Notes under the pieces: model-generated
Seen by the model: only the letters and a program-made list of their open reading frames with translations
Told to the model about the DNA's origin: nothing
The model's database searches: none
Assembly (NCBI RefSeq): GCF_900142475.1
Contig: NZ_FRAY01000001.1
Span: 124,001-188,000 of the forward strand
Length of the DNA: 64,000 nt
Reading direction: 5' to 3'
Source of the DNA: Fibrobacter sp. UWH4
Lineage (GTDB): Bacteria; Fibrobacterota; Fibrobacteria; Fibrobacterales; Fibrobacteraceae
Program-made: the position numbers and the translations under genes
Shown: positions 26,382 through 59,687 of the stretch, piece by piece
How the letters are laid out: the number at the start of each line of letters is the position of its first letter
Numbering within the stretch: the first letter of the stretch is position 1

Positions 26382-28025
26382 TTAACGCCTTACGGCCTTG
26401 AAAATCCCGAGGGGCCTGTTGCCTTGCGAGACCTTGACGAGGTAGGCGCCTTGCCGCAGGGTGATGTGGAGTTCGTTCCCCTGCGTGGCGCGGAATTCAG
26501 CGATGCGGTGGCCCTGCAAGTCGAAGATGCTGATGTCGTGCGCGCCGCCGTCGATGCCCTCAAGATGGAGTGTGCTACCGTCGATTCGTCCGCTGATGGC
26601 GTTGTGCGGAGTCATGGATTCGACGATGGTGATGCCTTCAGTTTCTTCTGCTCCTGAAGATGCACTTTCTGCCGAGCAGGAAGACTGCGGCATGGCGATT
26701 TCTGCACTTGATGAGGACTCCGGCTCTACCTGAATCAAGCCTCCATCGGTGATGGGCGTCTTTGCCCGTGTGAGGACGTCGAGCGGGTCGGGCTTGCTGG
26801 AATCGAATGCCTCGTGGTCGTCGCGCAGGTGCTTGGCGAGTTCGGGCACCTTCGCCTTGATTTCTTCGATATTCGCGCGGGCGAGTTCGTAGGCGCCGTA
26901 TTCGCAGAAGTGCGTCTTGTCGCTCGCGGTGTACATGTACATTTTTTCCTTGTTGCCACCGAGGGCCTTGCCGAGCGTGATGCTGTGCTGGTTCAGGTCG
27001 AGCACGGTAACTCCGAGTTTTTTCCCGAGGGCGCGCATGCGTTCGGGAAGCCCGCCTACGGCTGTTTTCGGGTCGGTCTCGTTCTGCCTTGCGGTGGATG
27101 TCACGAACAGCGGAATGGCGCCCTTCGCCTTGATTTCGTTTGCGTACTTGGTGAGGGTAGTTTCGTAGTTGTTCACGTCGTTTTGATTCTTCTGGTCGTT
27201 ATGCGCGAACTGCACGGTCACGAAGTCGCCCTTCTTGACTTCGGAGAGAATCTTGGCGAGGCGCTTCATGCTGTAGAATCCGCTGGCGGTAAGGCCCGAT
27301 TCGGCGTAGTTCGCGATGGCAAGGCTGGATTTGAAAAATCCCGGGGCCATCTGGCCCCAGCCCGCCCACGGTGCCATAATCTGGTCGACCACGGTGGAGT
27401 TTCCGCAGAGCCAAAGCGTGGTCACGTTGTCGTTACGCTTGATTTCGATTCCTGCGACGGCGGGCGCCTTGCCGCTGATGACGAAGGTGAGCTTCTTGTC
27501 CCAGGTGCGGTAATCCTTTTCGCGGTCCTTGATGCTCATGGTCACCGAGCCGTCCATGCTTCTTGTTTCCATGCGCCTGAGCGAAACGGTCTGCCTGCTG
27601 AACACGCCGCCGGCGAGGGTGATGCGGTCGAGCATGAGCTTGCGGTTTTCGGCCCATACGGTGGTTTCGCTTTCGTTTTCGCCGTCACCGAGAATGAACG
27701 TCACCTCGTAATTGCCTTGCGGGAGCGCTACCGAGAAAACCATGTCGCCCTTCGCCGTCAAGAAATCCGTGGTGAGGTCGTCGTCCCACAGACGGTCTAC
27801 CGAAGAAACCGTCCCGCTTTCGAAACCGAAACCCTGCGAGTCGCTGTACTTGGTGTTGGCCTTGACCTGCGTGTAGCCCGCGGCAACCGGGCCCTCGCCA
27901 AAGTCGAACTTGTAGTTTTCGGCGGCGTCTGCCCATGCGAACGCCCCGAGGACTGCGACCGCCGTGAGAATCGTTGCTGCCTTGATCGCAGTGTCTATTC
28001 CTGCTAATTGTTTTTGCTGTTCCAT
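26382..28025 (-). CDS. Rhamnogalacturonan acetylesterase-like SGNH hydrolase (CE12)
   Basis: Likely removes acetyl groups from the galacturonic acid of rhamnogalacturonan I. 547 residues: signal anchor/peptide to about 34, a galactose-binding-like domain (38-195, starting YKFDFG), the SGNH domain (200-415), a Ser/Pro linker and a T9SS-like C-terminal domain (LRQGAYLVKV). SGNH block I reads GNST with Ser210, so Asn replaces the usual Asp of GDS. Block III is QFAHND and block V is DKTH (D369, H372), so the triad is intact. It has its own promoter region with the TAGTA tandem repeat 34-50 nt upstream of the ATG, and is the last of three CE12 genes on this strand. Confidence 0.88.
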   Translation of the reverse strand: MEQQKQLAGIDTAIKAATILTAVAVLGAFAWADAAENYKFDFGEGPVAAGYTQVKANTKYSDSQGFGFESGTVSSVDRLWDDDLTTDFLTAKGDMVFSVALPQGNYEVTFILGDGENESETTVWAENRKLMLDRITLAGGVFSRQTVSLRRMETRSMDGSVTMSIKDREKDYRTWDKKLTFVISGKAPAVAGIEIKRNDNVTTLWLCGNSTVVDQIMAPWAGWGQMAPGFFKSSLAIANYAESGLTASGFYSMKRLAKILSEVKKGDFVTVQFAHNDQKNQNDVNNYETTLTKYANEIKAKGAIPLFVTSTARQNETDPKTAVGGLPERMRALGKKLGVTVLDLNQHSITLGKALGGNKEKMYMYTASDKTHFCEYGAYELARANIEEIKAKVPELAKHLRDDHEAFDSSKPDPLDVLTRAKTPITDGGLIQVEPESSSSAEIAMPQSSCSAESASSGAEETEGITIVESMTPHNAISGRIDGSTLHLEGIDGGAHDISIFDLQGHRIAEFRATQGNELHITLRQGAYLVKVSQGNRPLGIFKAVRR

Positions 28026-28058
28026 AAAACCATCCCTTTTACACTCGTTTGCGCTTGT

Positions 28059-28075
28059 ACTACAAAATGTACTAT
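28059..28075 (-). promoter_or_regulatory. TAGTA 12-nt direct repeat upstream of the CE12 gene
   Basis: On the minus strand ATAGTACA and GTAGTACA follow each other with TAGTA starts exactly 12 nt apart (plus-strand TACTA at 28059-28063 and 28071-28075). It has the same orientation relative to the gene as the sites at 37141 and 42776-42835. Confidence 0.65.
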
Positions 28076-28120
28076 AAAATTTTTAGAAAAGCAAGAAAAA
28101 ATTTATTTTTTTTTGTAAAT

Positions 28121-30007
28121 TCATTCCCCCGATACCGCAAAATGCGCCAAAATGGCGATTTTCCCGTCGAGTTCTACGCGCAGGTAGTAGCGACCGGCCG
28201 AAAGTCGGGCGCCTCCCTGCAGGAGTGCTGTGCTGCCGGCCGAAACCATGCGGGTCTCGTCAACAACCGTCTTGCCGAGCGCATTCATGATTTGTATGTG
28301 TGCCAAGCCGCCGGCGGAACGGAGGGTGAGGTTCCGGGGGTCGAAAGCCGTTTGGTTCTTTTGCATGGATACGGCGATGGTGGTGCCCGTTTCGGAATCC
28401 TGCGTGCCGCTAGAGTCCTTGAGTACTTCGGCGACGGGACAGCCGACCCGGTGTACGGCCTCGTTGGTAAAGGAAACCATGTCTACATTGGGGCCTCCGT
28501 TATTTGTCGTGGAATAGAGGACCATGTCGAAATCCACGGCGTCGAGCCAAACGTCGTCCACGTAGGCGGTGTCCCAGATATCCCAGCCGCCGGTAGGCGG
28601 GAGCTTTATATCGTAGGTGACTGCATCGATCTTGATTTTCATGTCGCGGTTTTCGGTTCCGTCAAAAGCGTAGCGCACCATAACCCGTGCGTTGGTGGCT
28701 GATCTGTCGGATGTAAGTTTGTATGTAGCCGTGCTGGAAATGTCGTTGGTCAAGTTGAAGAATCCCTTGCCCACGTAGCCCTCGTGATTCGTGTCGGTGG
28801 TGCCGTCACCCTTGTCCGGGTTCGCCATATCGATGGGAGACGGCCAAGCCTTGATTCCCTTGAGGTTGGAGCATTCTACGATGGCGGAACTGGATTGCGG
28901 GATTTCGGAACTGGAAGAAGCGGGCATTACAGAGCTGGAACTTTCGTTTTCGGTAGTTGAGCTTGCGACACAGGCGGCGCCGCCCTTGAACATGGCGGTG
29001 TAGGTCGTATTGTGGTTGGGCGTCTTGAAACCGTAGTAGAGCTTGTTGGACGAAATTTTCTTGCAGTTCTCGTCTGCCCAGTATTCAAAGGTCTCGCCGC
29101 TTGCGGGTGCCACCCGAAGGGTCATGGGGGAACCTCCCGGGAAACTCTGGTCCTGCGTGATGGCGCCCTTTGTCGCGATGTTCGCCTTTACGGTCACCTT
29201 GTAGCGGGGGCGTAACGCCGAAACGAGCTTTGTGAGTTCTGCCTTTGATTCGGGCGAAAGGAAGGTGTCGTTTACGCCCCTTTCCAGTTCTTCTGCAATC
29301 ATGGTGCCGTGGCCCATGGAGCCCATTTCTTGGAAGTGCGTATTCCCGTCGTTACTGCCGTTGGGGTAGTTGGGGTAAAGTCCTGCATCCAGTTGCATAT
29401 AAAGGAATTTCTTGACATACGAATCCATCTTTCCTTTGTATGTATTGTTATAGGTATTGTAGGATTTCATGTTCAAGTCTACGAAGGGAATCTTGTAATC
29501 CTTCGCAAGTTTTAGCATCATGCCGCGGGAATCGTAGTTGTTGCTTCCGGTAGAAAATACGTTGCGCGAACCGCTCATGGTGACGGTTGAAACCAACACC
29601 GGGGTTGCCCCGCGCTTTTGCGCCGTCGTGATGTACTGCTTCATGTAATACGGGAAGGAATCCTGGGGAACGTAGCGTTCCGGCTTGTTTGCGGTGCGGT
29701 CGTTATGCCCGAACTGCACGAATACGAAATCCCCTTTCTGGATGTTGGGCTCGAGGCTTTTTAGACGCCCGTCAACGATGAAACTCTTGGAACTGCGCCC
29801 GCCAATAGCCACGTTGTTTACCTTCACGCGGGAAGCGTCAAAGAAGTTGTTCAGTACCTGACCCCAGCCTTTTTGCGGGTATGCGGAGTCCTTGTAGTTG
29901 CAGACCGTAGAATCGCCGATGACATGGATGGTGAAGGATGTGCTGTCGCTCACGGCAAGGCTTGTAAACAGGCCGGCCACGATGGCGTATTTGAAAAAGT
30001 TCTTCAT
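28121..30007 (-). CDS. Rhamnogalacturonan acetylesterase CE12 with CBM35
   Basis: 628 residues, secreted: signal peptide to about 20, CE12/SGNH domain (24-260) with GDST (Ser33), GHND near 100 and HFQEMG as block V. A bacterial repeat domain of InlB/Flg_new type follows (VTVKANIATKGAITQ ... YTAMFKGG, 275-345), then a Ser linker, a CBM35/6-type module (about 375-520, with HEGYVGKGFFNL and GGPNVDMVSF) and a T9SS-like C-terminal domain (SAGRYYLRVEL). Removal of RG-I acetyl groups would open the backbone to the PL11 lyase two genes upstream. It starts 9 nt after the preceding CE12 stop codon with SD AAGGAG, so the two are co-transcribed. Confidence 0.9.
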   Translation of the reverse strand: MKNFFKYAIVAGLFTSLAVSDSTSFTIHVIGDSTVCNYKDSAYPQKGWGQVLNNFFDASRVKVNNVAIGGRSSKSFIVDGRLKSLEPNIQKGDFVFVQFGHNDRTANKPERYVPQDSFPYYMKQYITTAQKRGATPVLVSTVTMSGSRNVFSTGSNNYDSRGMMLKLAKDYKIPFVDLNMKSYNTYNNTYKGKMDSYVKKFLYMQLDAGLYPNYPNGSNDGNTHFQEMGSMGHGTMIAEELERGVNDTFLSPESKAELTKLVSALRPRYKVTVKANIATKGAITQDQSFPGGSPMTLRVAPASGETFEYWADENCKKISSNKLYYGFKTPNHNTTYTAMFKGGAACVASSTTENESSSSVMPASSSSEIPQSSSAIVECSNLKGIKAWPSPIDMANPDKGDGTTDTNHEGYVGKGFFNLTNDISSTATYKLTSDRSATNARVMVRYAFDGTENRDMKIKIDAVTYDIKLPPTGGWDIWDTAYVDDVWLDAVDFDMVLYSTTNNGGPNVDMVSFTNEAVHRVGCPVAEVLKDSSGTQDSETGTTIAVSMQKNQTAFDPRNLTLRSAGGLAHIQIMNALGKTVVDETRMVSAGSTALLQGGARLSAGRYYLRVELDGKIAILAHFAVSGE

Positions 30008-30016
30008 GCTGGCTCC

Positions 30017-31786
30017 TTATTTTACGTTGGCCCAGGTGGTGCTAAATTTGTGTTTCCCGTTGCGGACGATGATGCGGTAGATGCCGCTTGCCTGGACGAT
30101 GCCGGACAGGTCTATGTTGTCGCTGCCGGAGAGCTTGCGGGCGACCAGACGGCCCGACATGTCGAAAACATCTATCCTCGTGTTTTCGTTTTTCGAGACA
30201 GAAAGAATGTCGCCTTTCAGGGACGTTGTCTCGACTTCGGGAACGATTCGTTCCACGCCGTCGACGCTGAACCCGAATGCGTCTATGTTCGGCCCTCCGT
30301 TTTCGGTCATGGAAATGAACTTGAGGATTCCTTCGCCATTGATGAGATCCAGGTCCACGTAGGCGGTATCCCAGGTGTCCCAATCTGCCGTGGGCTTGAA
30401 CTTCACGATATAATCGTGGTCGAGGTACACGTTCAGCGAGCGCTCTTCGGTGCCGGCAAAGGAATAGCGGATTCCCATAGTCACGTAGCCTGCAGAGGGA
30501 AACTTCATCTTGTATTCGGCGGTAGAATTCAGCGCGTTTTCGAAATTGAAGAAACCGTTGCCTGTATAGCCTTCGTGGTTTGCCTCGGTGGCGCCGTTTC
30601 CCGTATCGGGATTGGCGGCGTCGATAAAGTTCTTGATGTCTAGGCTTATATGCTTTTCTTCTTGGACGGTGTCTTTCGCGGTAGTGTCTACGGAGTATGT
30701 TACGTCGGAAAGTTTTTTCGGAGTCCCTGTCGGGAATGCCGTGAGCGCCTTGCCGTCACCGGTGTATTTTTCTGCGGTGCCGCCTTCGTAAACAGCGGTG
30801 TATTGCGTGCTGGCGGAACCCATGACGAAGGTGTATATCTTGTCTGATTTTACCGAGGCGTTTGCGTTCCCGCTCACCTTTTTGCCGTTGCCGTCATACC
30901 AGCCAAGAAATTTCTTGCCGGATTTTGGTGTAGTCTTGAGCGTCACCGTCATGCCCTTGGGATAATAGGAGCTGATAGTCGTTGCCTGGTCGGAACCTGC
31001 GGGGCTGACTTTCACGTCTACCTTGTACATGGGCGCCAAGTAGTCGGCGAGTTTTTTTACCTGAGCGTCCGGGTGTACGCGCAACTGTTCGGTAATGATG
31101 CGCCCGAAAGCGATGGCTCCATTCTGCTGGAAATGAAGGTTGTCATTGTTCCCGTTCGCGTAGTTGCTGTATTCGCCCTTGTCGAGCACCACGTTCAGGT
31201 AATGGTGAGCGTAGAACTGGCCTACGGAAAGCAGGTAGTTGCGGCTCAGGGTGTCCATGTCGATGATGGGCGTGTTGAGCGTTTTCGAAAGTTCGCGTGC
31301 GATAATCGGGTAGTTGTGGTAGGATTCGTAAATGGAATCCTGCTTTGTTCCGCGGAAATCGCTGCGGCGTACCGGATTCACGATGATGGGGTAGGCTCCC
31401 TTGGCCTTCGCCTCGTTGATCATCTTGGTCATGTAGGTGCGGTAACCGGCTTCGGAGCTGTAGTTGCGGTCATTGATTCCGAACTTGATGAATACGTAGT
31501 CGCCTTTCTGGAGGGCGTTCTTGACTGGGGTCCATTTCCCGCCGTTGTAATAAGTTTCTGCGGCGGTACCGCCTGCACCGTAGTTTTTGACGGTCGCGAG
31601 CCCGGAATCGAAGAAGTATCCGAAATTCTGGCCGATGCCCTGTTTGGGGTAATAGCCTGCGTTCCAGTCCTGCATGGTGGAATCGCCGCACATGTAGATG
31701 GTTACTTTCGCCCATACGGCTGCCGGGGCAATGACCATGGAAATTGCCACGAGGCTTTGCCAAATCTTTGAATAAAATCTGTTCAT
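30017..31786 (-). CDS. Rhamnogalacturonan acetylesterase CE12 with CBM35
   Basis: 589 residues with the same module order as the next gene: signal peptide (to ~26), SGNH/CE12 domain (28-250) with CGDST (Ser36), FGIND as block III and HFQQNG as block V. An InlB-like repeat domain (VDVKVSPAGSDQ ... YTAVYEGG) and a CBM35-type module (SLDIKNFIDAANPDTGNG ... NGGPNIDAFGF) follow, then a T9SS-like C-terminus (IDVFDMSGRLVARKL). Block III has Ile for the usual His of GHND. The two adjacent CE12-CBM35 genes look like a tandem duplication that has diverged strongly, perhaps for different acetyl positions. A hairpin and a palindrome separate it from PL11 upstream. Confidence 0.9.
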   Translation of the reverse strand: MNRFYSKIWQSLVAISMVIAPAAVWAKVTIYMCGDSTMQDWNAGYYPKQGIGQNFGYFFDSGLATVKNYGAGGTAAETYYNGGKWTPVKNALQKGDYVFIKFGINDRNYSSEAGYRTYMTKMINEAKAKGAYPIIVNPVRRSDFRGTKQDSIYESYHNYPIIARELSKTLNTPIIDMDTLSRNYLLSVGQFYAHHYLNVVLDKGEYSNYANGNNDNLHFQQNGAIAFGRIITEQLRVHPDAQVKKLADYLAPMYKVDVKVSPAGSDQATTISSYYPKGMTVTLKTTPKSGKKFLGWYDGNGKKVSGNANASVKSDKIYTFVMGSASTQYTAVYEGGTAEKYTGDGKALTAFPTGTPKKLSDVTYSVDTTAKDTVQEEKHISLDIKNFIDAANPDTGNGATEANHEGYTGNGFFNFENALNSTAEYKMKFPSAGYVTMGIRYSFAGTEERSLNVYLDHDYIVKFKPTADWDTWDTAYVDLDLINGEGILKFISMTENGGPNIDAFGFSVDGVERIVPEVETTSLKGDILSVSKNENTRIDVFDMSGRLVARKLSGSDNIDLSGIVQASGIYRIIVRNGKHKFSTTWANVK

Positions 31787-31814
31787 TTTAAACCAATCCC
31801 TTTTGTGAAATCCG

Positions 31815-31824
31815 TTAACGTTAA
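31815..31824. promoter_or_regulatory. Palindrome TTAACGTTAA, possible operator
   Basis: Perfect 10-bp palindrome 29 nt upstream of the CE12 ATG and just past the PL11 hairpin. AACGTT-centred palindromes resemble LacI/GalR-type operators. One copy only, so support is weak. Confidence 0.3.
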
Positions 31825-31863
31825 AAGCCGCCTAACGCCCTTCCGAGAAAGGGCGCTAGACGG
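31825..31863 (-). terminator. Strong hairpin after PL11 (terminator or mRNA-stabilising)
   Basis: On the minus strand, a 15-bp stem with two G-U pairs (arms 31849-31863 and 31828-31842, loop of 6), followed only by CTTTTAA. The short U tract suggests partial termination, which would reduce CE12 expression relative to PL11. Confidence 0.55.
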
Positions 31864-31879
31864 GGAGTTTATGGGGGTT

Positions 31880-34462
31880 CTATTTCTTAAAGATTCCCTT
31901 GGAGATGTACTTGCCGTCGATTTTTACGCGCACGAGGTAACTCCCCTTCGGGAGCGGTTCCTGCGAGAGGTCCACGGCGCTCTCACCCGCGGCGACAAAC
32001 TTCGCGATGGTCCCCACGATGCGGCCACCCATGTTGTAAATCTCGATTTCGGCATATCCGCCACGGGCAAGCTTCTGTACGCCTGTCGCAAGGGCGGTCG
32101 TCCCTTCCGCAGGGGCGAGCGTCACACCCGGTACCCCGAAGTAGAAACCGTCTACGTTCGGGCCGCCGTTCTCCGTGGTGGAGGAGAGCTTGAGCGTATT
32201 CTCTCCCTTCACGATGCTTACAGGTACCTGGACTTCTTGCCATGTGGTCCAGCTGCCGGTAGAAGGCAGGCTTACGCTGATCGCTTCGCCACCATTTACG
32301 GAGAGGTTCATGTCGCGGGCATCGTTCCCGCCGTTTGCAAACACGATAGAAACGGTTGTCTTCGCGTCTTCCTTCGCGGTCACTTTCCAGGTGGCAAAGC
32401 TCGCCGCATCGTTGTCGAAGTTGTAGTAGCCCTTCTCTTTCCAGCCTTCGTTCGTGTCTTCGAAGGTTCCTTTACCTTCTGCCGGGGCGGATGCATCCAC
32501 GAACGATTCCTTCGTCATGTCGTGCTTGATTTCGGGAACGACGGGGTCGACAATCACTGGGTCAATAACGACGGGGGTAGTACCGTCACCTGCGAGATAA
32601 ATGGAAGGCTGCTTCAGGTTCTTTACCGCGTCGGGCAGGTAGTAACCCAGGTGCGGCGGCTGGTTGTAGGCCACGTTCTGCCAGGCAATGCTCACGCGGT
32701 AATGCGGGTCGTGCATCAGGGTGTACACGCGGTAATCCGTCGTGACCGGAGTGCCGAAAATCGTAATCATGGAGGCGTCGCTGCCCGAACGCAGGATAAG
32801 TTCTTCGCGCCAGTCGCCGAACAAATCGGCCACGAGGCTCGGGTTCTTCTTTGTTCCGTTGTTCGTAGTAGACTTGTTCACGTTGCCGTAGGTGAAGTAG
32901 CGGTTCGCCTTCTTGTCCTTGGTGCTCCACTTGTCTATAGAACCGTCGAGCAGTTCGTCTTGCAGGTCGCCGTCGAAATAGATGCGGAAGTTCACCGAGG
33001 GCTTGCTGCCCGAAATCTTCTGGCCCTTCACGTTCTTCACGCCGTCGCCCGCGCTGCTCCACATCTCGAATCCGCGGTGATCCGCATCGATGTCTGCGGC
33101 AAGGCCTCGGCCGTTGTCTACGCCCGGGTTAGGCTGCTTGGTGCCCCAGATAATCTTGCCGTCGGGGCCGCGGAAGTCGTCGGTATAGGCGGCAGACTTT
33201 TCTTCGTGAACATCCCACGATTCAAGGCCCGGACGGTCGGGGTCCATGTCCGAAAGGTGGAGCGCGTCGCCGTGTCCGAGCCCTGTGCGGTAAAGGAGCG
33301 TGCCGTCGGACTTGAGCGCCGCGGAACCGAACACGATTTCGTCCTTGCCGTCGCCGTTGATGTCGCCCACGGAAACGTTGTGGTTGCCTTCGCCAAAGAT
33401 GCCCTTGCCCCTCGTTTCGGACTTGTGGTACCAGCGCTGCTTGAGCTGCTTGCCGTCGAAGTCGTAGGCGACCGCGTAGGCGTAGGTGTAGTAGCCGCGC
33501 ATCATCACGAGGCTCGGGTGTACACCGTCGAGGTAAGCGATGGCCGCGAGCATGCGTTCGCTGCGGTTGCCGTAGGTGTCGCCCCAGTTCTTGGTGACAT
33601 TACGGCCCGGCACGTAGTCGATGGTCGTGATGGCTGCACCCGTCTTGCCGTTGAACACGGTCAGGAACTCGTTCCCGCTCATGATGGTGCCGGTCTTTGT
33701 GCGGTAATCCTTGCTCTTGTCGCCGATGGCCTTGCCTGTACCGTCAATGGTGCCGTCGCTAGTTTTCATGGCGACTTCGGCGATGCCGTCACCGTCCAGG
33801 TCGTAGACCATGAACTGCGTGTAATGGGCGCCCGCGCGGATATTCTTGCCCAGGTCGATGCGCCACAGCTTTTTGCCGTTCATCTTGTAGCCGTCGATAT
33901 ACACGTTGCCCGTGTAGCCGCTCTGCGAGTTGTCCTTTTGGTTGCTCGGGTCCCACTTTACGACGAGTTCGAGTTCCCCGTCGCCGTCCAGGTCGCCCAC
34001 GCTCATGTCGTTCGAGGTGTAGCTGCAGCTGGAACCGTCGGGCATCTTGAGGTCGCCCGGGCGGTCAAGCTTGAGAGTTGCATACGGGATGTTCTTACCG
34101 TCGGAATTGGCCGACTTGTCGAACACGAACGAGAGCCCGGCCTGCGCGCCTTCCTTGCCGTCCACGACTGCGGCGACCGTATACTTGGAGGTCGCCTTGC
34201 CCGAAGCCTCGAGGTAGTTTGTCGCACCGTTCCCTGCAATGGTCGCAATTTTTGTCCCGTCGCGGTAGAGGTTGAATTCGGTATTCGGGGCGTCGCTCCC
34301 GAGCAGGCGCCAGCTGACCAGCATGCCTTTTCCGACGTTAGAAGCCACGAGACCGCGGCTCAGGTTTTCCATCTGACGCGGGGCCGCGAAAGACGGGATG
34401 GCGAGTCCAAAGGACAACGCTACACACGCCGCAAGCGGCGTTTTCTTTCCACAATACACCAT
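31880..34462 (-). CDS. Rhamnogalacturonan lyase PL11 with CBM35
   Basis: Cleaves the rhamnose-galacturonate backbone of RG-I by beta-elimination. 860 residues: signal peptide (to ~27), an Fn3-like start of the PL11 domain (MENLSRGLVASNVGKGMLVSWRLL), then the eight-bladed propeller rich in Ca-binding DxDGDG loops (GDLDGDGELELVVKWD, YDLDGDGIAEVAMK, GDINGDGKDEIVFG) to about 630. A CBM35-type module (about 645-790) and a T9SS-like C-terminal domain (IEIYNMGGRIVGTI, GSYLVRVKIDGK) follow. SD GGGGAGG. First gene of the leftward RG-I operon, divergent from TIGR02147; the shared control region is 314 nt. Confidence 0.94.
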   Translation of the reverse strand: MVYCGKKTPLAACVALSFGLAIPSFAAPRQMENLSRGLVASNVGKGMLVSWRLLGSDAPNTEFNLYRDGTKIATIAGNGATNYLEASGKATSKYTVAAVVDGKEGAQAGLSFVFDKSANSDGKNIPYATLKLDRPGDLKMPDGSSCSYTSNDMSVGDLDGDGELELVVKWDPSNQKDNSQSGYTGNVYIDGYKMNGKKLWRIDLGKNIRAGAHYTQFMVYDLDGDGIAEVAMKTSDGTIDGTGKAIGDKSKDYRTKTGTIMSGNEFLTVFNGKTGAAITTIDYVPGRNVTKNWGDTYGNRSERMLAAIAYLDGVHPSLVMMRGYYTYAYAVAYDFDGKQLKQRWYHKSETRGKGIFGEGNHNVSVGDINGDGKDEIVFGSAALKSDGTLLYRTGLGHGDALHLSDMDPDRPGLESWDVHEEKSAAYTDDFRGPDGKIIWGTKQPNPGVDNGRGLAADIDADHRGFEMWSSAGDGVKNVKGQKISGSKPSVNFRIYFDGDLQDELLDGSIDKWSTKDKKANRYFTYGNVNKSTTNNGTKKNPSLVADLFGDWREELILRSGSDASMITIFGTPVTTDYRVYTLMHDPHYRVSIAWQNVAYNQPPHLGYYLPDAVKNLKQPSIYLAGDGTTPVVIDPVIVDPVVPEIKHDMTKESFVDASAPAEGKGTFEDTNEGWKEKGYYNFDNDAASFATWKVTAKEDAKTTVSIVFANGGNDARDMNLSVNGGEAISVSLPSTGSWTTWQEVQVPVSIVKGENTLKLSSTTENGGPNVDGFYFGVPGVTLAPAEGTTALATGVQKLARGGYAEIEIYNMGGRIVGTIAKFVAAGESAVDLSQEPLPKGSYLVRVKIDGKYISKGIFKK

Positions 34463-34776
34463 ATTTTCCTCCCCAAAAGGGTCGAAGTTTTACCAAACAG
34501 GTACTTATCGTACCGATTTTTAATATAATCTAAATTTTTATTAAAAGTCTACATTTTTTCAATAATTTACCTTAATTTACAAAGATTGTTAGTTATTTGT
34601 TGTTATAAAAAGTCCACATTTGTAGAGAAATCGCCGAAAAATGTTCCGTTTTCGCCGTTTTGAGGCCTTTTCTAAAAGTCAACGGTTTTCATCGAATATC
34701 GAGCGAGGGGTGCGGATGTACAAAAAAGTTGATAATTACTATACTATGTACTATATTTTTATGTATATTTGATATC
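34463..34776. promoter_or_regulatory. Divergent control region between the PL11 operon and TIGR02147
   Basis: Gene-free, AT-rich, 314 nt. It holds AAAAGTCTACATTT (34543-34556), AAAAGTCCACATTT (34608-34621) and a looser relative, AAAAGTCAACGGTTT (34674-34688). Close to the TIGR02147 start is a TAGTA cluster (34737-34753). The same AAAAGTCCACATTT word occurs inverted at 37037 upstream of the arabinan operon. Confidence 0.5.
34737..34753 (-). promoter_or_regulatory. TAGTA repeat cluster with 12-nt period
   Basis: Read on the minus strand, TAGTA occurs at 34753, 34746 and 34741 (descending). The outer pair is exactly 12 nt apart, as at the four other sites. It ends 24 nt before the TIGR02147 ATG, a good place for autoregulation. 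Confidence 0.6.
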
Positions 34777-35634
34777 ATGAATACCTTCGTAAACATTTTC
34801 GAGTTTACCAAGTTCCGCAAGTTCCTGGCGGAATACCAGGAGCGCCGTCAGGCGGCGGAGCCTTCGTTTTCGCGTACCGAGTTCTGCAACTTGCTGGGGC
34901 TCCCGAATACCCGCAGCTATTTCAACGACGTGGTGCAGGGCAAGCGCGTGACCGACAACATGCGCGAGCGCTTTATAAACGTCATCGGGCTCAAGGGGAA
35001 CGAGGCGAGGTATTTCGAGGCGATGGTCGATTTTGACCAGGGGAAGACTGCCCAGGTGCGCGAGGCGGCGTTCGATGCCATGATGCGCCTGAACAAGAAC
35101 CCGCAGGCGATTGTGGACCCGGACAGTTACGAGTTCTTTGGCAACTGGTACAACAGCACGGTTTACGCGATTCTCGAGGTGATGGATGTGGGCGACGACG
35201 TGTCGGAACTTGCGGCGAAGATTTTCCCGCCCGTGTCCGAGAAGCGCCTGAAGGCAAGCCTTGAACTCATGCAGAAGATGTCGCTCGTGCGCAAGGACGA
35301 ACGCGGATTCTGGAAGCCGACGAAGGATAGCCTTGCCACAGTGCAGCAGAGCAAGAGCCAGATGGTGCTCCAGTTCCAGAAGCAGTGCCTGGAACTCTCG
35401 AAGCAGGCGCTGGAATCCGAAGGGAGCGAGTCCCGCGACATGACCACGTTCACGTTCGCGGTGTCGAAATCCGCGCAGGCGAAGGTCGAGAAGGCTGCTG
35501 AAAAATTCAAGGCGCAGGTGCGCCAGATCGTGATGGCCGATAGCGAGACGCCGACCGTCGTGGAGCATGTGAACCTGCACGTGTTCAGCAACATCCGCGA
35601 AAACAATAAACCGTCCGGTGCGGGCGAGGCATAG
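34777..35634 (+). CDS. TIGR02147/DUF4423 family putative transcription factor
   Basis: 285 residues, cytoplasmic, no signal peptide. The N-terminal ~80 residues (FTKFRKFLAEYQ, FSRTEFCNLLGL, YFNDVVQGKR, EARYF) look like an Xre-like helix-turn-helix. Residues 110-190 resemble a winged helix (LKASLELMQKMSLVRKDERGFWKPT). The last ~90 residues are the DUF4423 part. TIGR02147 was defined as a family expanded in Fibrobacter with unknown function. It is divergent from the RG-I operon and followed 14 nt later by a surface lipoprotein gene. ATG at 34777 was chosen because the conserved start FxxYxDxRKFL-like follows at once; the 39 upstream codons are AT-rich and unlike the family. DNA binding is inference. 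Confidence 0.85.
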   Translation: MNTFVNIFEFTKFRKFLAEYQERRQAAEPSFSRTEFCNLLGLPNTRSYFNDVVQGKRVTDNMRERFINVIGLKGNEARYFEAMVDFDQGKTAQVREAAFDAMMRLNKNPQAIVDPDSYEFFGNWYNSTVYAILEVMDVGDDVSELAAKIFPPVSEKRLKASLELMQKMSLVRKDERGFWKPTKDSLATVQQSKSQMVLQFQKQCLELSKQALESEGSESRDMTTFTFAVSKSAQAKVEKAAEKFKAQVRQIVMADSETPTVVEHVNLHVFSNIRENNKPSGAGEA

Positions 35635-35648
35635 GGAGGAAGGTGTTG

Positions 35649-36998
35649 ATGGGATGCTTTAAGAATATCTTTGGTTCGGGGCGACTCGCGTTCGCTTTTG
35701 CCGCGGTGTGCGTGCTCGCCTTCTTTGCGGGCTGTAGCACTACGTCTTCTACGGATTCCGCGGGGATTTTGATTGAGACGAATACGGGCAACAAGGGGCT
35801 TGCGCGGATTCTTGTTTCTACCGAAAATCTGGATGTTGTCGCGGGCGATACTGTCGTGGTGTTCAAGGCCAGCGCCGATACCGTAGGCGATACTTTGTAT
35901 GTAGATACGGTGGACTACAGGCATGTGGCGACCTCGATTGAGTGCGCGTCGGGCGTGATGTCGCTCGATAGCCTGCCCGTGGGCGATTACGAATCCGTTT
36001 CGGTGCACCCTCTGGAAGGTGACGTGCGTTCCGTGGCTGTTTCCTGGAACGTCGAGGAAAATTCCACGAATATCGACCGTGCGCTGGAAGCTGAATTCAA
36101 GGGCGCTGTCGCGCTCGTGCTTCCTGAGGGCTTTGTAGATTTGGCCAGTTCGGACGAGGTGTTCGAAAGCATGCCCTTCGCGGTCCGTCTCCCGGATGTG
36201 AAGAACCCCTGCCTGCTGGATGCTGACGGCAACATGGTGCGTCTCAGTCGTGCCGAACTTGCAGATGCCCCTACGGCAAAGGTTTCCGACTCGGCCGTTT
36301 ATTGGGGCGTGCTGCCGCAGGTCTCCTTCGACGGGAATGGCGCGATTTCCCTTGACATCGTAGAATCGTGCCAGTCCAGCGACCGCATTGACTTGGCTCT
36401 GGCCCGCTATGTGGAGCATTTTGATTCGATAGTTCCTTCCGAAGCGGCGCTCGCCACCGGCAACGAGCTTGCGTCTGTGCTCGGCAATTCCCGCTGGGTG
36501 GATTCTACCGACAACTGGTTCTACATTCCTGATTTCAAGCCCTTCTCCGAAGACGGCTACTACATGGGGCTTTCCATCTGGTTTAATGTTGATTCCATGC
36601 AGGTGGGCGAGTACGCTCAAATTATTTCGGCCAAGAAGGACAGCGTGGGCTTCACCCTGCAAAAGCGCGGAACATCGGGTGCGGTGAACCTCAGGCTCGA
36701 TACGCGCACGGGTGTCTACAACACGGTCGTGGGGCGTGCGAACGGGGTGCTCGATGGAACCTGGCACAACTACTCGTTCAAGATTCACGGCGATAGCGTG
36801 ACCACGTTCATCGACGGAACGCTGCTGGAATCCAGGCAGTTCGATGCGGGCGAGGGCTTTGCGACTGCGTTCAACCCCTCGATTGGCTACGGCGGGCTTC
36901 GCGGCGGTATTGACGAGGTGTTCTTCTTCGACGGTACGCAGTCCAACAACTGGATGCGGCTCTTCTACGCCCTGCAATATGCGGTTATAAAGGAATAA
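35649..36998 (+). CDS. Surface lipoprotein with LamG-like domain, partner of TIGR02147
   Basis: 449 residues. Lipobox FFAGC puts the lipidated Cys near 28. Residues 35-140 form a carboxypeptidase-regulatory/Ig-like region (GDTVVVF ... MSLDSLPVGDY). Residues 165-235 are a degenerate DUF2341-like segment (PFAVRLPDV, DADGNMVRLS, AVYWGVLPQV). Residues 290-445 are a LamG/concanavalin jelly roll (YYMGLSIWFNVDSMQVGEYAQIIS ... LDGTWHNYSFKI ... GGIDEVFFF). Strong SD (GGAGGAAGG) and a 14-nt gap to the TIGR02147 gene show co-expression. A glycan-binding or sensing role is inferred from the fold and from the neighbouring RG-I and arabinan operons. Confidence 0.75.
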   Translation: MGCFKNIFGSGRLAFAFAAVCVLAFFAGCSTTSSTDSAGILIETNTGNKGLARILVSTENLDVVAGDTVVVFKASADTVGDTLYVDTVDYRHVATSIECASGVMSLDSLPVGDYESVSVHPLEGDVRSVAVSWNVEENSTNIDRALEAEFKGAVALVLPEGFVDLASSDEVFESMPFAVRLPDVKNPCLLDADGNMVRLSRAELADAPTAKVSDSAVYWGVLPQVSFDGNGAISLDIVESCQSSDRIDLALARYVEHFDSIVPSEAALATGNELASVLGNSRWVDSTDNWFYIPDFKPFSEDGYYMGLSIWFNVDSMQVGEYAQIISAKKDSVGFTLQKRGTSGAVNLRLDTRTGVYNTVVGRANGVLDGTWHNYSFKIHGDSVTTFIDGTLLESRQFDAGEGFATAFNPSIGYGGLRGGIDEVFFFDGTQSNNWMRLFYALQYAVIKE

Positions 36999-37036: not shown

Positions 37037-37050
37037 AAATGTGGACTTTT
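37037..37050 (-). promoter_or_regulatory. Conserved 14-mer AAAAGTCCACATTT
   Basis: Identical, in reverse orientation, to 34608-34621 in the PL11/TIGR02147 control region. It lies 57 nt upstream of the likely -35 of the arabinan operon. Confidence 0.5.
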
Positions 37051-37106
37051 TTTAAGTAAAGTGTTGTAAAAATTACATCATTTAGTTTGAAATTGTGTAA
37101 AAACTA

Positions 37107-37135
37107 TTGACTTTTAATAAAAACTGACGTGTATT
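37107..37135 (+). promoter_or_regulatory. Likely promoter of the arabinan (GH43) operon
   Basis: TTGACT (37107-37112), 17-nt spacer, TGTATT (37130-37135). The -35 hexamer and spacing are identical to the PL9 promoter at 20714. The start site would fall on or beside the first TAGTA. Confidence 0.55.
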
Positions 37136-37172: not shown

Positions 37173-39290
37173 ATGTTTGGTGTGATGGGATTAAATTCTC
37201 GCGGAGTGGTGTCCGCGGCGATTTTCACGCTCGCTTTTGCGGGCCAAGGTGCGTTCGCTCAGTCGTGGTATGCAACTGACGTGCGCCAAGGGGGCCATGA
37301 CCCCTCCATGTACAGGGACGAGAATGGCTACATCCTTATGTCCACGAATAACAACCTGGCAATGTGGACCTCGACGGACATGGTCAAGTGGAGTTCGAAG
37401 GGCCAGATTTTCAGGGATAGCCCGCAGTGGCTCAAGAATGCCGTGGGCGGAAGGACTGACGGCATCTGGGCTCCGGACCTGTTCCATTTCAATAACCAGT
37501 ACGGCGTGTTCTACTGCGGCTCCGTTTTTGGCCAGCGCACGTCTGCAATCGGTGTCGCGACGAACGCGAACCTGAACTTCTCGGATCCGGCGAAGGGTTG
37601 GACGGACCAGGGCGAAGTGACGCGCGCCACGAACAGCAACAACTACAACGCGATTGATGCCGACGTGGTGGTGACTCCCGATGGCCAGTACTGGATGACG
37701 TACGGTTCGTGGAATGCAGGCGGTATCCGTTTGATCAAGCTGGACCCCAAGACGGGCAAGCAGGCGAGCGACGACAAGACGAACTACATGATTGCGACGC
37801 GCGGCGGTACGGGTATCGAAGGCCCGAGCCTCATCGAGCACGGCGGGCAGTATTTCTTGTTCACGGCCTGGGACGTATGTTGTAAACAAGGTAACGAAAT
37901 CGAACAGACCACCTACAAGACGGCTATGGGTCGCGCCGACAAGGTGAACGGAACCTACAAGGACCGCAGCGGCAAGGAACTCAACAAGGGTGGCGGAACC
38001 ATCCTGATGCAGCGTTACAGCCGTTACGTGGGCCCGGGCGGCGGCGAAGCCTTCAAGGACCTGAACCGCATCCGCTTTGTGCATCATTACTACGACCTGA
38101 CCGGCGACAAGTACAACCACATCCACATTCGCGACCTGGTGTTTACCGACGACAACTGGCCCGAAATGGGGCAGCCCTTCCTCGGACGCTACCTGAGTGC
38201 CGAGGCGGAACACGGCATTATGACACGCGGTGCGACGGATGACTTGACCTTCAATTACACGAAGGAAGCCTCGAACGGCGAATACGTGGGCTACATCAAT
38301 ACGAAGGGCTCCAAGATTCGCTTGCCGATGAACATTATGCAGGCGGGCGACTACATTCTGCGTTACCGCTACGCGAACGGCGGTGATAATGATGCTACAC
38401 ATAAAGTAACGGTGAATGGAAAGGCGCAGACGGTGAAGCTCCCGAAGACGGGCGCCTGGGGCAGTTTCCCCGAAAAGTCCGTGGCGATGGTGCCTGCAAA
38501 GCTCAAGCGCGGCGGCAACTTTATTGAGGTGGAACCCGACCAGAATTTTGCGGAACTTGACCGCATCGACTTCTTGCGCGTGATTCGCGATACCATTCCG
38601 GGCAACGGCTTCGATAACGGCATCAAGGTGCGTCTCACGAAGGACGACAAGCTTGCCGTCAAGAACGGTGGCTACGCCATCTTCGAAAACGTGGTGACGG
38701 ATTCTATCAAGAGCACCGAAGTCAAGGTCGAACTGCAACAGTGCAACGGCGGAACGCTCAGTATCCGCGAGGGTTCTGCCACGGGTACGGAACTTTCCAA
38801 GTGCACTGTTCCTTCGAGCTGCGCAAACGGCGCCTGGACCGAAGTGAACTGCTCTGCCACCAAGAAACTTTCGGGCGTCAAGGACTTCTACCTCACGGGT
38901 AGCGGCATGAGCGGCGAAGTGCTGGTGGGCAACATCCGTTTCGGAAAGGCAGCTTCTATTGAACCGCCGGTATCTAGTTCTAGCGTGAATCCGCCTGCCT
39001 CGAGCTCCAGCGTGGCTCCGGTGGAATCTAGTTCCAGCATCGCTGAAGTTTCCAGTTCTAGCGAAATTTCGACGGCTCTCGCTCAGGCAAAGTCTTTGAA
39101 AACCGGCTATAAATTGACTGCAAATGCTTTGGGCTATACCTTCCATTTTGATCGTCCCGGTAATTACGAAATCATCGTGATGAACCCGATGGGTCAGCTG
39201 ATGGCTCGAAAGACGGTGCGCATGGAATCTGAAGTGTCGCTGCAGGGCCTGCCTAAAGGAAAGTACGTTTTCAAGGTGATGAATCGCTAA
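37173..39290 (+). CDS. Endo-1,5-alpha-L-arabinanase-like GH43 with two CBM6/35-type modules
   Basis: Hydrolyses arabinan side chains of RG-I. 705 residues: signal peptide to Ala29, GH43 five-bladed propeller (32-345), a CBM35/6-like module (about 360-475), a CBM6-like second module (about 480-600), a repetitive Ser linker (PPVSSSSVNPPASSSSV ...) and a T9SS-like C-terminal domain ending GKYVFKVMNR. The catalytic triad is apparent: base D43 in GGHDPS, pKa modulator D162 in NAIDADVV and acid E216 in GIEGPS; HDPSM and GIWAPD favour arabinanase-type subfamilies. First gene of a three-GH43 operon. Confidence 0.9.
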   Translation: MFGVMGLNSRGVVSAAIFTLAFAGQGAFAQSWYATDVRQGGHDPSMYRDENGYILMSTNNNLAMWTSTDMVKWSSKGQIFRDSPQWLKNAVGGRTDGIWAPDLFHFNNQYGVFYCGSVFGQRTSAIGVATNANLNFSDPAKGWTDQGEVTRATNSNNYNAIDADVVVTPDGQYWMTYGSWNAGGIRLIKLDPKTGKQASDDKTNYMIATRGGTGIEGPSLIEHGGQYFLFTAWDVCCKQGNEIEQTTYKTAMGRADKVNGTYKDRSGKELNKGGGTILMQRYSRYVGPGGGEAFKDLNRIRFVHHYYDLTGDKYNHIHIRDLVFTDDNWPEMGQPFLGRYLSAEAEHGIMTRGATDDLTFNYTKEASNGEYVGYINTKGSKIRLPMNIMQAGDYILRYRYANGGDNDATHKVTVNGKAQTVKLPKTGAWGSFPEKSVAMVPAKLKRGGNFIEVEPDQNFAELDRIDFLRVIRDTIPGNGFDNGIKVRLTKDDKLAVKNGGYAIFENVVTDSIKSTEVKVELQQCNGGTLSIREGSATGTELSKCTVPSSCANGAWTEVNCSATKKLSGVKDFYLTGSGMSGEVLVGNIRFGKAASIEPPVSSSSVNPPASSSSVAPVESSSSIAEVSSSSEISTALAQAKSLKTGYKLTANALGYTFHFDRPGNYEIIVMNPMGQLMARKTVRMESEVSLQGLPKGKYVFKVMNR

Positions 39291-42701: not shown

Positions 42702-42775
42702 GATTGAGCTTGTACTCCAAAGAATATTCTCGTTTTTCGCCCAAAATCGCCAATTTTAAAATTTTTCAAAAAATA

Positions 42776-42792
42776 TAGTACGCTTTGTAGTA
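42776..42792 (+). promoter_or_regulatory. TAGTA 12-nt direct repeat, distal copy (GH53 promoter)
   Basis: TAGTA at 42776-42780 and 42788-42792 (12 nt apart) in the 195-nt spacer before GH53. A second pair lies 43 nt further downstream. Confidence 0.6.
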
Positions 42793-42818
42793 AAAAGAGT
42801 TATATTTATAGAAAATTG

Positions 42819-42835
42819 TAGTACAATTTATAGTA
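42819..42835 (+). promoter_or_regulatory. TAGTA 12-nt direct repeat, proximal copy (GH53 promoter)
   Basis: TTGTAGTACAA then TATAGTACAA, with TAGTA at 42819-42823 and 42831-42835, again 12 nt apart, ending 61 nt before the GH53 ATG. Confidence 0.65.
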
Positions 42836-42896
42836 CAACAAAATTTGAAAAAGCCGTAAACAAGATAGCGATAAACTAAAATCAAAGGAGTGAAGG

Positions 42897-44726
42897 ATGT
42901 TTGGATTGGGAAAAATCATCAGGAAAACGGCGCTGGTCTTGGGTGCCGTGGCGGTTGCGGCGCTTGCGCGCCCGTATATCGTGGGTGTCGATGTCTCGTG
43001 GGTGCTCGAAGACGAGTCGCTGGGGGCGAAATACTACGATAACGGCAAGCAGCAGGATCTCTTTGATATCCTGCAGAATCACGGAATCAACTTTATCCGC
43101 GTGCGCACCTTCGTGAATTCGTGCATCGGCTACGCGAAGAACAGCTACTCGGGCGCGAATTCTAACGTGTGTTGGTGCGACCTGGAGCATACCATCGCGC
43201 TCGCCAAGCGCATCAAGGCGCACAACATGGGGTTCTTCCTCGATTTCCACATGAGCGACACGTGGGCTTCCATCGGTCACCAGGATGTTCCGGCCTCTTG
43301 GGCGGGCAAGAGCAATGCCGAGATGGGCAAGCTCGCCTATAACCACGTGAAGACGACCATGGATGCGCTCATGAAGGCGGGACTTCGCCCCGACATGGTG
43401 CAGGTGGGTAACGAAATTAACTCGAGGGTGGCGGGCGTTTCGCTGAGCAAGACGGCGGACTTCGCGAACATCATCAATTCGGGTGTGCGTGCGGTGCGCG
43501 AGACGGATCCTTCTATCAAGATTGTGATGCAGCATGGTCAGCCGCGCCCCGAGAAGGGCTTCGCGGATTGGTACAGCAAGATTCACGCGAATATTGACTA
43601 CGATGCCATTTGCGGTTCCACCTACGGCACCACGAACAACGGGCAGGATTGGCGCGATATGTTCGGGCTCGTGGTCAAGAACAAGAAGGCGGTGCTGAGC
43701 TGCGAATATACGGGCGAACGTACGGCCCTCGTGAACTCGGTGTTCTATGAATTTGGCGACCTGGGCTGGGGAACCTTCGTGTGGGAGCCGACCCGCTACA
43801 GCAACAAGCCGATGTTTGATCGCGACGGCCAGAAATACACGGCGAATGCGCGCCTTAGGGAACTGCGCGATATCGCGAAAAAATACAACGCGACGCTCCC
43901 GGACTGGGTGCAGGTCGGCAAGGCCGTAAAGAAGTACAACGTGAAGACGACGGTCGCTTACGGCGGATCGATTGCGCAGAGCATCGAGGGTAGTGAAATT
44001 GCCGAAGGGAGCAAGGTGACCTTTACGGCCGTTCCGCAGGAGGGCTGGGAATTTGTGGCGTGGACCGGCGACAATACGGGTAACGGCAAGGAATACACGG
44101 TGGCAAGTCTCGGCAAGGATGTGAACCTGGGCGCGACCTTCAAGTTCGTGGGCAAGGATTCGCTCAAGTACGAAGCGGAAAACGGCGTGTTCAACAAGAC
44201 GGTTCTCGAGTCGACGCACGAGGGCTTTTCGGGCAAGGGCTACGCGAATCTCGATAACGAGGTGGGTTCTTCGCTGACGCTTTCCGTGGTTGCTGCCGAC
44301 GAGGGTGATAAGGACGTGAAGATTGTCTTTGCGAACGGCTCTACGGCAAACCGCCCGGTAAGTGTTGCGGTGAATGGCAAGGTGCAGGTGGAATCGGTGG
44401 ACTTCGAATCGACGGGTGCCTGGGAATCGTGGGATTCTAGCGTGGTGACGCTCAGGTTGCCTGCGGGTGCAAGCGCCATTACCATCGCCTCACTCACGAA
44501 GGATGGCGGCCCGAATATCGACCGCATCGAGTTCGTGAATAAGAATGCGGTAATCCCCGTCAATCCTGGCGACTCGGCGGTGGGCGACAGCGGCACGACG
44601 GTACTCCAGCGGATCCCTGTGCGTAGCAATACGCTCCGTAACGGTGGCCGGAACTTCCTGGTGAACGGGCGTTCTGCGGGTGCATTGAAGAACCGCGCGT
44701 CAAGAATCAGGGTATATACAAAGTAA
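42897..44726 (+). CDS. Endo-beta-1,4-galactanase GH53 with CBM35
   Basis: Cuts beta-1,4-galactan side chains (type I arabinogalactan) of RG-I. 609 residues: signal peptide to about 24, GH53 TIM barrel (26-340), InlB-like repeat domain (about 345-415: EGSEIAEGSKVTFTAVPQEGWEF), CBM35-type module (about 420-545: YEAENGVFNK, HEGFSGKGYANLDN) and a basic tail (RNFLVNGRSAGALKN ... RVYTK). The acid/base is E173 in VQVGNEIN and the nucleophile E270 in LSCEYTGE. The repeat + CBM35 + tail block is highly similar to that of the GH43 enzyme two genes downstream. First gene of a run with only 16 and 12 nt to the following two genes. Confidence 0.94.
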   Translation: MFGLGKIIRKTALVLGAVAVAALARPYIVGVDVSWVLEDESLGAKYYDNGKQQDLFDILQNHGINFIRVRTFVNSCIGYAKNSYSGANSNVCWCDLEHTIALAKRIKAHNMGFFLDFHMSDTWASIGHQDVPASWAGKSNAEMGKLAYNHVKTTMDALMKAGLRPDMVQVGNEINSRVAGVSLSKTADFANIINSGVRAVRETDPSIKIVMQHGQPRPEKGFADWYSKIHANIDYDAICGSTYGTTNNGQDWRDMFGLVVKNKKAVLSCEYTGERTALVNSVFYEFGDLGWGTFVWEPTRYSNKPMFDRDGQKYTANARLRELRDIAKKYNATLPDWVQVGKAVKKYNVKTTVAYGGSIAQSIEGSEIAEGSKVTFTAVPQEGWEFVAWTGDNTGNGKEYTVASLGKDVNLGATFKFVGKDSLKYEAENGVFNKTVLESTHEGFSGKGYANLDNEVGSSLTLSVVAADEGDKDVKIVFANGSTANRPVSVAVNGKVQVESVDFESTGAWESWDSSVVTLRLPAGASAITIASLTKDGGPNIDRIEFVNKNAVIPVNPGDSAVGDSGTTVLQRIPVRSNTLRNGGRNFLVNGRSAGALKNRASRIRVYTK

Positions 44727-53246: not shown

Positions 53247-54281
53247 CTATTTGGTGTAAATCTTATGCTCGGCCATATAGATAGCTAGATAGTCGATGAC
53301 GCCGGATTCTGCGCCCTTTACGGGAATGTAGCGCAAGTTATTTTGTGCGTCTATAATAACGGCTAGCCCCGCGATATAATTTATCCAATGGTAATCCTCG
53401 TGATACTTGAGGGCGACCTTTTTCTGCGAACCGAAAACGGCGAGTGGCATCACGAAGATGTCGTGCGATACCATGATGGTAACGCGTTTCCACTTGGATA
53501 AATTTTTCAGGATGACCGCTTGCATGAATTCTTGTGCGCGGGGCTCCATTTCGTAAAATGTTTCTGGGTATCCGCCTTCGTATGCCCAGCGAGCCATCAG
53601 TTCGATTGAACTGCCCTTTAGGCCGAGCGCGGTCGCTTGCTTTGCGAGAGAGTCGGCCGAAATTTTCAAGAACCAATTGCCAGTAATGTCGTAATTCGTG
53701 ATGAGTTTCGGGAGAGTTGCTTCGCCGCGACCTTTCGAAATTTGGTTTGCGGTTTCGTTCGTGCGCACGAATCCCGAAGTGACGTACGAGAATTCTTCTT
53801 CGCTTTTGAGGGTGGCCCCTAGATCCTGTGCCATCTGGATTCCGTTTGTGGTGAGTTCGGTTTCCAATGCCACGTCGTCTTCACGTTCGGAATGGCGAAT
53901 GATAAAAACGGCCTTTTCGTCGGGCGCGAGACTCTTGTAGACATCGGCGACGGTAGCAAAGCCATCTTTGTCCAAAACGATTTCCGGAGAGGGTTCAATG
54001 ACTTCTGACGAAGAGGATTCCTCGATTGAAGAGGAATAGTCGACATATGGTTCTGCGGACGAAGACAGAGCTTGTAGAATATGTTCGCTAGAAGAGTACG
54101 GCGGAATGCTCGAAGACGACCATTCCGGAGAATCTTGCTCGGACGATGACTCGGGTATCCAGGAGTGATTGGAAGATTCGTCGGACGAAGCTGATTCAAT
54201 ATCGGGGCTAGAAGCTTTGTCGTTGCATGCCGTGAGTGCAGCAATACATGCGGCGGCAAAGATGAAAAGGTGCGTGCGCAT
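53247..54281 (-). CDS. Histidine-phosphatase-superfamily lipoprotein
   Basis: 344 residues. Lipobox ALTAC gives a lipidated Cys near 19, followed by an ~85-residue Ser/Glu linker (SSSDE, SSSSI, SSSIEESSSSE). The branched histidine-phosphatase core spans about 105-330: the RHG-type catalytic motif is IIRHSERE (His then Glu instead of Gly), with SGFVRTNETA, the acid-containing RWAYEGGYPETF and the second His in MVSHD. Substrate unknown, located outside the inner membrane. The ATG shares a base with the stop codon of the upstream gene (TAATG), which shows translational coupling to the SUMF1-type lipoprotein. The upstream ATG (54293) would overlap more and lacks the lipoprotein pattern start. Confidence 0.8.
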   Translation of the reverse strand: MRTHLFIFAAACIAALTACNDKASSPDIESASSDESSNHSWIPESSSEQDSPEWSSSSIPPYSSSEHILQALSSSAEPYVDYSSSIEESSSSEVIEPSPEIVLDKDGFATVADVYKSLAPDEKAVFIIRHSEREDDVALETELTTNGIQMAQDLGATLKSEEEFSYVTSGFVRTNETANQISKGRGEATLPKLITNYDITGNWFLKISADSLAKQATALGLKGSSIELMARWAYEGGYPETFYEMEPRAQEFMQAVILKNLSKWKRVTIMVSHDIFVMPLAVFGSQKKVALKYHEDYHWINYIAGLAVIIDAQNNLRYIPVKGAESGVIDYLAIYMAEHKIYTK

Positions 54282-56195: not shown

Positions 56196-56278
56196 ACGCA
56201 CCTCCATCGAGTAAGCATCCGTAACCAATTTCAATATAAGCTTAAGCTATAAGAAAAAATATGTACAAAATATTTTAC

Positions 56279-59511: not shown

Positions 59512-59586
59512 TCAAACTCCTTGATACACCATTATACCCTAAATCTATGCTTATAAATAAATAGGGGGTCATTTTTTTAGGTTTGG

Positions 59587-59606
59587 TGTGGACAAAAATG
59601 TCAACA
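59587..59606. promoter_or_regulatory. Inverted repeat TGTGGACA-N4-TGTCAACA
   Basis: Same design as 56279-56298 with one mismatch in the right arm, located 76 nt before the GH26 ATG and 82 nt before the TIGR02147 ATG. The arms start 12 nt apart. Confidence 0.6.
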
Positions 59607-59687
59607 TGCCTGTAAAAAATCAATAAAAAGCGGTTGTAGAAATTGATTATTTTGATGATAGAAACTATATTCTTGGGGTAGCAAATC

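Follow-up and report, generated by a model that had tools for sequence, protein, structure and literature searches.

The window, a stretch of 64,000 nucleotides from Fibrobacter sp. UWH4, contains a TIGR02147/DUF4423 regulator gene followed on the same strand by a lipoprotein gene (Table 1). The two are separated by 14 nt with a GGAGG Shine-Dalgarno sequence, as originally predicted; a GTG codon lying 6 nt before could also serve as the start of the lipoprotein gene. Divergent from the pair, the minus-strand genes of 26382-34462 encode a PL11 rhamnogalacturonan (RG) lyase and three GDSL esterases, and the plus strand continues after the pair with three GH43 genes and a GH53 gene. The four genes of the predicted RG-I operon are present on the minus strand, although the distal gene (26382-28025) may sit outside the RG-lyase transcript, since it has a regulatory box of its own (box 2, see below).

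The predicted recurrence of this three-part layout with GH26 was confirmed: a second regulator-lipoprotein pair diverges from a GH26 gene (57862-59511). The intergenic region between them contains a candidate operator, an inverted GTGTGGACAAAAATGTCAAC, whose core is identical in the orthologous region of genome G096 while the flanks differ; it resembles inverted box 1 halves, and may belong either to the second copy or to the C1:445005 regulator described below. A third pair (L045:6746-8787, about 63745-65786 of the window) runs off the window end and has a GH5 gene 26 nt downstream. Its lipoprotein contains CarboxypepD_reg and CIA30-like domains. Elsewhere, two overlapping minus-strand frames (54281-56234) look by eye as if a frameshift had split a single gene for a sulfatase-modifying-factor-like lipoprotein.

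Table 1. Genes and candidate regulatory sites of the window discussed in the text.
Feature	Position	Strand	Remarks
GDSL esterase with galactose-binding-like domain	26382-28025	-	probable box 2 target
Box 2 pair before GDSL esterase gene 26382-28025	28057-28076	-	
PL11 rhamnogalacturonan lyase, divergent gene	31880-34462	-	RGL11_C 4e-206
Three box 1 (AAAAGTCNACATTT) sites before the divergent RG lyase	34543-34687	+	at 34543, 34608 and 34674; spacing 65 and 66 bp
Box 2 pair (ACTATAC-TATGT-ACTATA) in the regulator's own promoter	34737-34755	-	candidate autoregulatory operator; conserved in nearly all orthologous promoters
TIGR02147/DUF4423 regulator (P0001)	34777-35634	+	285 aa; NCBIfam 5e-74, Pfam DUF4423 2e-21
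Cognate lipoprotein	35649-36998	+	449 aa; lipobox FAG-C29, post-Cys motif SAGILIETNTGN, beta-sandwich middle, C-terminal LamG/ConA-like domain
Two box 1 sites before GH43 gene 37173-39290	37037-37115	-	spacing 65 bp
Three box 2 sites upstream of GH53 gene 42897-44726	42774-42836	+	at 42774, 42817 and 42829
GH53 endo-galactanase-like gene	42897-44726	+	probable box 2 target; Glyco_hydro_53 6.5e-52
Inverted GTGTGGACAAAAATGTCAAC in the second divergent intergenic region	59586-59612 (approximate by a few bases)		candidate operator; core shared with G096
Second TIGR02147 regulator	59688-60533	+	NCBIfam 1e-70
Second cognate lipoprotein	60533-61756	+	1-nt overlap; lipobox LVG-C18; weak CIA30-like C-terminus
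GH5 gene	61826-63718	-	26 nt downstream of third pair

The first and second regulators of the window match both TIGR02147 (NCBIfam; 249 and 238 bits, cut-off 50) and DUF4423 (Pfam; 77 and 105 bits, cut-off 30) over their full length and above the curated cut-offs, which places them in the family. The AlphaFold2 model of the first (mean pLDDT 88) predicts N-terminal HTH-like helices, a middle winged-helix region and long C-terminal helices. A search of this model against PDB folds returned winged-helix proteins among weak matches, with no match of E < 0.1 and no global match. Below the cut-offs, HTH_31 is found in the second copy (E = 1e-3) and HigA in a Bdellovibrio member of the family described below (E = 3e-6). 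The window regulator very probably binds DNA, at a predicted site in the divergent intergenic region (34463-34776) and at others in CAZyme promoters. The library entries for TIGR02147 ('Fsuc_second', an NCBIfam paralog model) and DUF4423 give no function, as the original prediction had stated. No paper on TIGR02147 was found in the open-access literature, and DUF4423 is named once in passing, in Bdellovibrio (PMC12546842).

Both of these regulators are accompanied by a lipoprotein with a signal peptide and lipobox cysteine (Table 1). By the E. coli rule, Ser or Thr at position +2 suggests the outer membrane. In the first lipoprotein, the Laminin_G_3 match lies just above its cut-off (28.4 versus 27.6 bits); the model (pLDDT 64) is of low confidence outside the LamG part, and its fold matches are to the generic ConA/LamG jelly roll only. 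A lipoprotein at another locus (L159:10365-12398), whose regulator is near-identical to that of the window, shares its N- and C-termini and has quite different middle domains (677 versus 449 aa), a difference that would be accounted for by domain swapping or insertion.

The genome contains 26 matches to TIGR02147. Based on genes called with a simple gene caller, a lipoprotein gene directly follows 24 of them, at distances of -14 to +22 nt and mostly with overlaps of 1, 4 or 8 nt. A 25th is followed by a lipobox-like sequence with no clear start, and a single orphan (L034:9798-10646) has no lipoprotein downstream. Since lipoproteins account for only 15 of 288 genes in control sequence totalling 400 kb (binomial p ~ 5e-29), chance can be excluded as the cause of this pairing. 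TIGR02147 occurs in 157 of 168 Fibrobacterota genomes, the largest number of candidate genes in one genome being about 88; the 14 control genomes have none. Among 60 further loci, half of them in ten distant genomes, the downstream gene is a lipoprotein by a strict lipobox at 53, and at four more it is lipoprotein-like with an unusual lipobox. The dedicated regulator-lipoprotein pairing is phylum-wide. It may also predate the phylum: at one locus on the Bdellovibrio plasmid AP029177.1 (L295:3989-5541), the reading frame of a TIGR02147 member (4e-35) shares 4 nt with that of a Sec-exported protein lacking a lipobox. Searches of viral and phage sequences with this member yielded nothing useful. 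A tandem run of such units (L031:8001-17476; G000:C5:108596-118071) encodes KGPFVKGS-type lipoproteins, at least one of them with Fib_succ_major domains, and its third regulator is a C-terminal fragment only (85 aa called).

CAZymes, in contrast, adjoin only 5 of the 26 pairs: the three at this island, one with GH43 and CBM6, and one with GH27-type, GH127 and GH43 genes. About 20 pairs have no CAZyme adjoining, and most of these other pairs neighbour housekeeping genes, as judged from translations. The CAZyme linkage of the pairs is local, not general. The expectation that TIGR02147 genes would have both a lipoprotein and a CAZyme neighbour was thus borne out for the lipoprotein and not for the CAZymes.

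The paired lipoproteins share a signature directly after the lipobox cysteine, of the type AGGxSETxN (with variants such as AGILIETNTGN), which is missing from unpaired lipoproteins. An HMM of the 48 residues after the cysteine, trained on distant genomes only, separates the two classes in this genome: every one of the 23 paired lipoproteins exceeds 3.2 bits, and none of the 15 unpaired reaches 2.5 bits. As this signature sets paired lipoproteins apart, we conclude that regulator and lipoprotein form a genuine two-gene unit. Members of one ortholog group have almost the same signature, which varies from group to group. The signature is followed by beta-sandwich domains and then by variable ends, which include LamG, CBM_4_9, CIA30-like, pectate-lyase-like and Fib_succ_major domains. 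The last of these (PF09603, Fibrobacter succinogenes major domain) occurs in the lipoproteins of at least five TIGR02147 genes in this genome (L031, L033, L035, L036 and L042) and is absent from those of the window.

Two types of repeated box were recognised in the window by eye before their distribution in other genomes was examined. The repeat recognised first in 34463-34776, box 1 (AAAAGTCNACATTT), has only two weaker matches in the window outside the arrays of Table 1. Spaced pairs of box 1 occur in 35 of 80 genomes of the genus, with about 70 matches compared to 1 for a reversed control. At the loci read, the arrays nearly always precede an RG lyase, GH43 or GDSL esterase gene, in the same orientation. 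Owing to this spread over the genus and this position, the arrays appear to define a genus-wide RG-I regulon. Box 1 was considered as the site of the window regulator and rejected: it is present in 22 of 67 genomes lacking that regulator, some of them complete, and an ortholog (at least 60% identity) occurs in only 13 of the 35 genomes with box 1 arrays. It tracks another TIGR02147 protein, the single-copy type encoded at C1:445005, which is present in 34 of the 35 array genomes and has box 1 in its own promoter in all 22 array genomes checked, compared to 2 of 7 genomes without arrays. Based on this co-occurrence and the box in its own promoter, box 1 is best assigned to the C1:445005-type protein. 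This regulator and its lipoprotein (L028:8001-10650; G000:C1:445005 onward) are conserved in the genus, and the lipoprotein contains a pectate-lyase-like beta-helix (fold match 1e-23); at the position of the canonical catalytic Arg, most orthologs have another residue. The pair is a candidate pectin sensor and RG-I regulator.

The original prediction had placed the divergent RG-lyase operon under the window regulator. This is not supported, as its promoters carry box 1 and, of 13 orthologous loci, only 2 have an RG lyase as the divergent partner; in about half, it is a GDSL esterase bearing box 2. From this distribution, it is probable that insertion of the RG-lyase genes separated the regulator from an older divergent partner. 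The more general proposal, that of a pair dedicated to a polysaccharide operon, holds in that the pair is real and phylum-wide; control of this operon is not supported, and adjacent CAZymes are rare.

Box 2 (TTNTAGTACA in 12-bp direct repeats) is probably the window regulator's own box. All 13 genomes with the regulator have tandem box 2, as do 2 of the 67 without it (p = 3e-13). Both exceptions are fragmented assemblies that carry the GH53 gene, and in one of them a contig begins with a gene like the cognate lipoprotein. The box is kept in nearly all orthologous regulator promoters, down to 61% protein identity; no box 2 site was found in the ortholog promoter of L135. Since box 2 and the regulator lie in one co-inherited gene cluster, the co-occurrence is partly linkage. 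The GH53 gene and the cluster co-occur, with no case in the genus of the gene without the cluster, and only one unlinked target was seen, before an RG-lyase-like gene on contig C20 of G096. The GDSL esterase lacks box 2 in G096, and in G087, which has no regulator, it has box 1 in place of box 2. By eye, box 2 overlaps or follows -10-like sequences before its targets, a position that would fit repression relieved by substrate.

A third type of box suggests that autoregulation through type-specific boxes is likely general. In a search of 80 genomes for TGTTCCCA pairs 58-80 bp apart, the box of another TIGR02147 type, 24 of 27 pairs preceded a TIGR02147 start by no more than 200 bp, and mostly by 98-112 bp. 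Other signals were weaker or absent: spaced direct repeats (58-78 bp) in single TIGR02147 promoters were not above control promoters, TGTNGAC gave a weak excess upstream of all TIGR02147 genes (15 observed versus 3.4 expected; 10 of 100 control promoters), and a profile search of genome contigs identified no conserved stretch. Judged by these boxes, TIGR02147 proteins probably act as transcription factors that regulate their own genes and, in some cases, pectin genes.

We therefore favor, with a probability of about two in three, a reading in which each TIGR02147 protein would be an autoregulated, local transcription factor co-expressed with a dedicated lipoprotein from overlapping or near-adjacent reading frames, the window copy acting through box 2 and the C1:445005 type being the best candidate for box 1. 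The window regulator would bind TTNTAGTACA direct repeats 12 bp apart and control its own regulator-lipoprotein operon together with two further genes, those of the GDSL esterase (26382-28025) and of GH53 (at 42897). The RG-lyase and GH43 promoters would belong to the second, genus-wide RG-I regulon, with G000:C1:445005 and its pectate-lyase-like lipoprotein as the best candidate for its control. Each protein presumably activates or represses transcription from its own box. At the cell envelope, the lipoprotein would most likely bind polysaccharide, serving either as a binding subunit or as a receptor.

These two roles imply different routes for the signal. If the lipoprotein is a co-expressed binding subunit only, the regulator itself would sense a cytoplasmic sugar or oligosaccharide. 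This is the ordinary logic of local CAZyme regulators and dispenses with a linker; the C-terminal helical domain could hold the ligand, and the C1:445005 type has non-adjacent CAZyme targets. We rate this reading at somewhat below even odds, as it leaves unexplained why nearly every paralog, even far from CAZymes, should have a lipoprotein with a family-specific post-Cys signature. Alternatively, the lipoprotein may be a receptor, which binds polysaccharide outside the cell and directly or indirectly alters its cognate regulator, which in turn switches the operon. The pairs would then be a phylum-wide class of paralogous glycan receptors, each with an outer-membrane lipoprotein sensor, a cytoplasmic HTH-DUF4423 regulator with its own box and a transmembrane step between them; LamG, CBM or pseudo-lyase heads would be exchangeable and the post-Cys peptide specific to the pair. 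The one-to-one pairing with overlapping frames, the carbohydrate-binding-like C-termini (LamG, CBM_4_9, pectate-lyase fold) and the pairing of the box 1 regulator with a pectate-lyase-like lipoprotein of altered catalytic Arg position are all consistent with such a receptor. The DUF4423 part also co-varies with the N-terminal half of the lipoprotein more than the HTH part does (Mantel r = 0.34 versus 0.15), a weak effect that partly reflects shared descent and may be biased by unequal segment lengths. However, an exported outer-membrane lipoprotein cannot touch a cytoplasmic protein, and the pair encodes neither a transmembrane nor a periplasmic linker; we rate the receptor reading, including its exchangeable heads and pair-specific peptide, as less likely than not.

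Contact in the cytoplasm would be feasible before export. An unexported lipoprotein precursor could bind the regulator, the export load setting expression; the overlapping frames fit such feedback, as does the 4-nt overlap of the Bdellovibrio plasmid member with the gene of an exported protein without a lipobox. This is one example outside the phylum, and we consider the mechanism unlikely. A further possibility is that the cleaved signal peptide of the lipoprotein is the regulator's ligand, as in RRNPP or enterococcal sex-pheromone systems, where an HTH regulator likewise stands beside a lipoprotein. Between orthologs whose regulators are 77-91% identical, the signal peptides are only 17-20% identical, compared to 66-71% for the 22 residues after the cysteine, and signal peptide and regulator show no correlation. 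A peptide ligand should be conserved and co-vary with its regulator; the pheromone explanation was rejected as highly improbable.

The proposed unit of an autoregulated factor and its dedicated lipoprotein differs from known systems in several respects. Like the SusR, hybrid two-component and ECF sigma/anti-sigma systems of Bacteroidetes, it places a local regulator at a polysaccharide locus together with a lipoprotein that may bind glycan. The pair, however, consists of a cytoplasmic-type HTH protein and a lipoprotein only, with no membrane-spanning sensor or anti-sigma factor within it. Probable autoregulation, local targets and repeated boxes are shared with one-component CAZyme regulators of the LacI, ROK and AraC types; TIGR02147 is an unrelated family that nearly always has a lipoprotein partner, and its boxes are direct repeats instead of palindromes. 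From RRNPP regulators and enterococcal lipoprotein pheromones it is set apart by the lack of conservation of its signal peptides. Compared to the 'Fsuc_second' and DUF4423 entries, the lipoprotein pairing and the promoter boxes are additional, and the TIGR02147-lipoprotein regulatory unit seems to be previously undescribed.

Fibrobacter is a major rumen fibre degrader, and we found no account in the open-access literature of CAZyme control in Fibrobacter by dedicated transcription factors, or of a CAZyme regulon. Two TIGR02147-linked regulons probably meet in the one pectin island described here. For the TIGR02147 family, the analysis provides a proposed function that can be tested, defined DNA boxes, specific candidate target genes and a lipoprotein that is almost always its partner. 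If the lipoprotein is a receptor, the pair would represent a new way of passing a glycan signal across two membranes.
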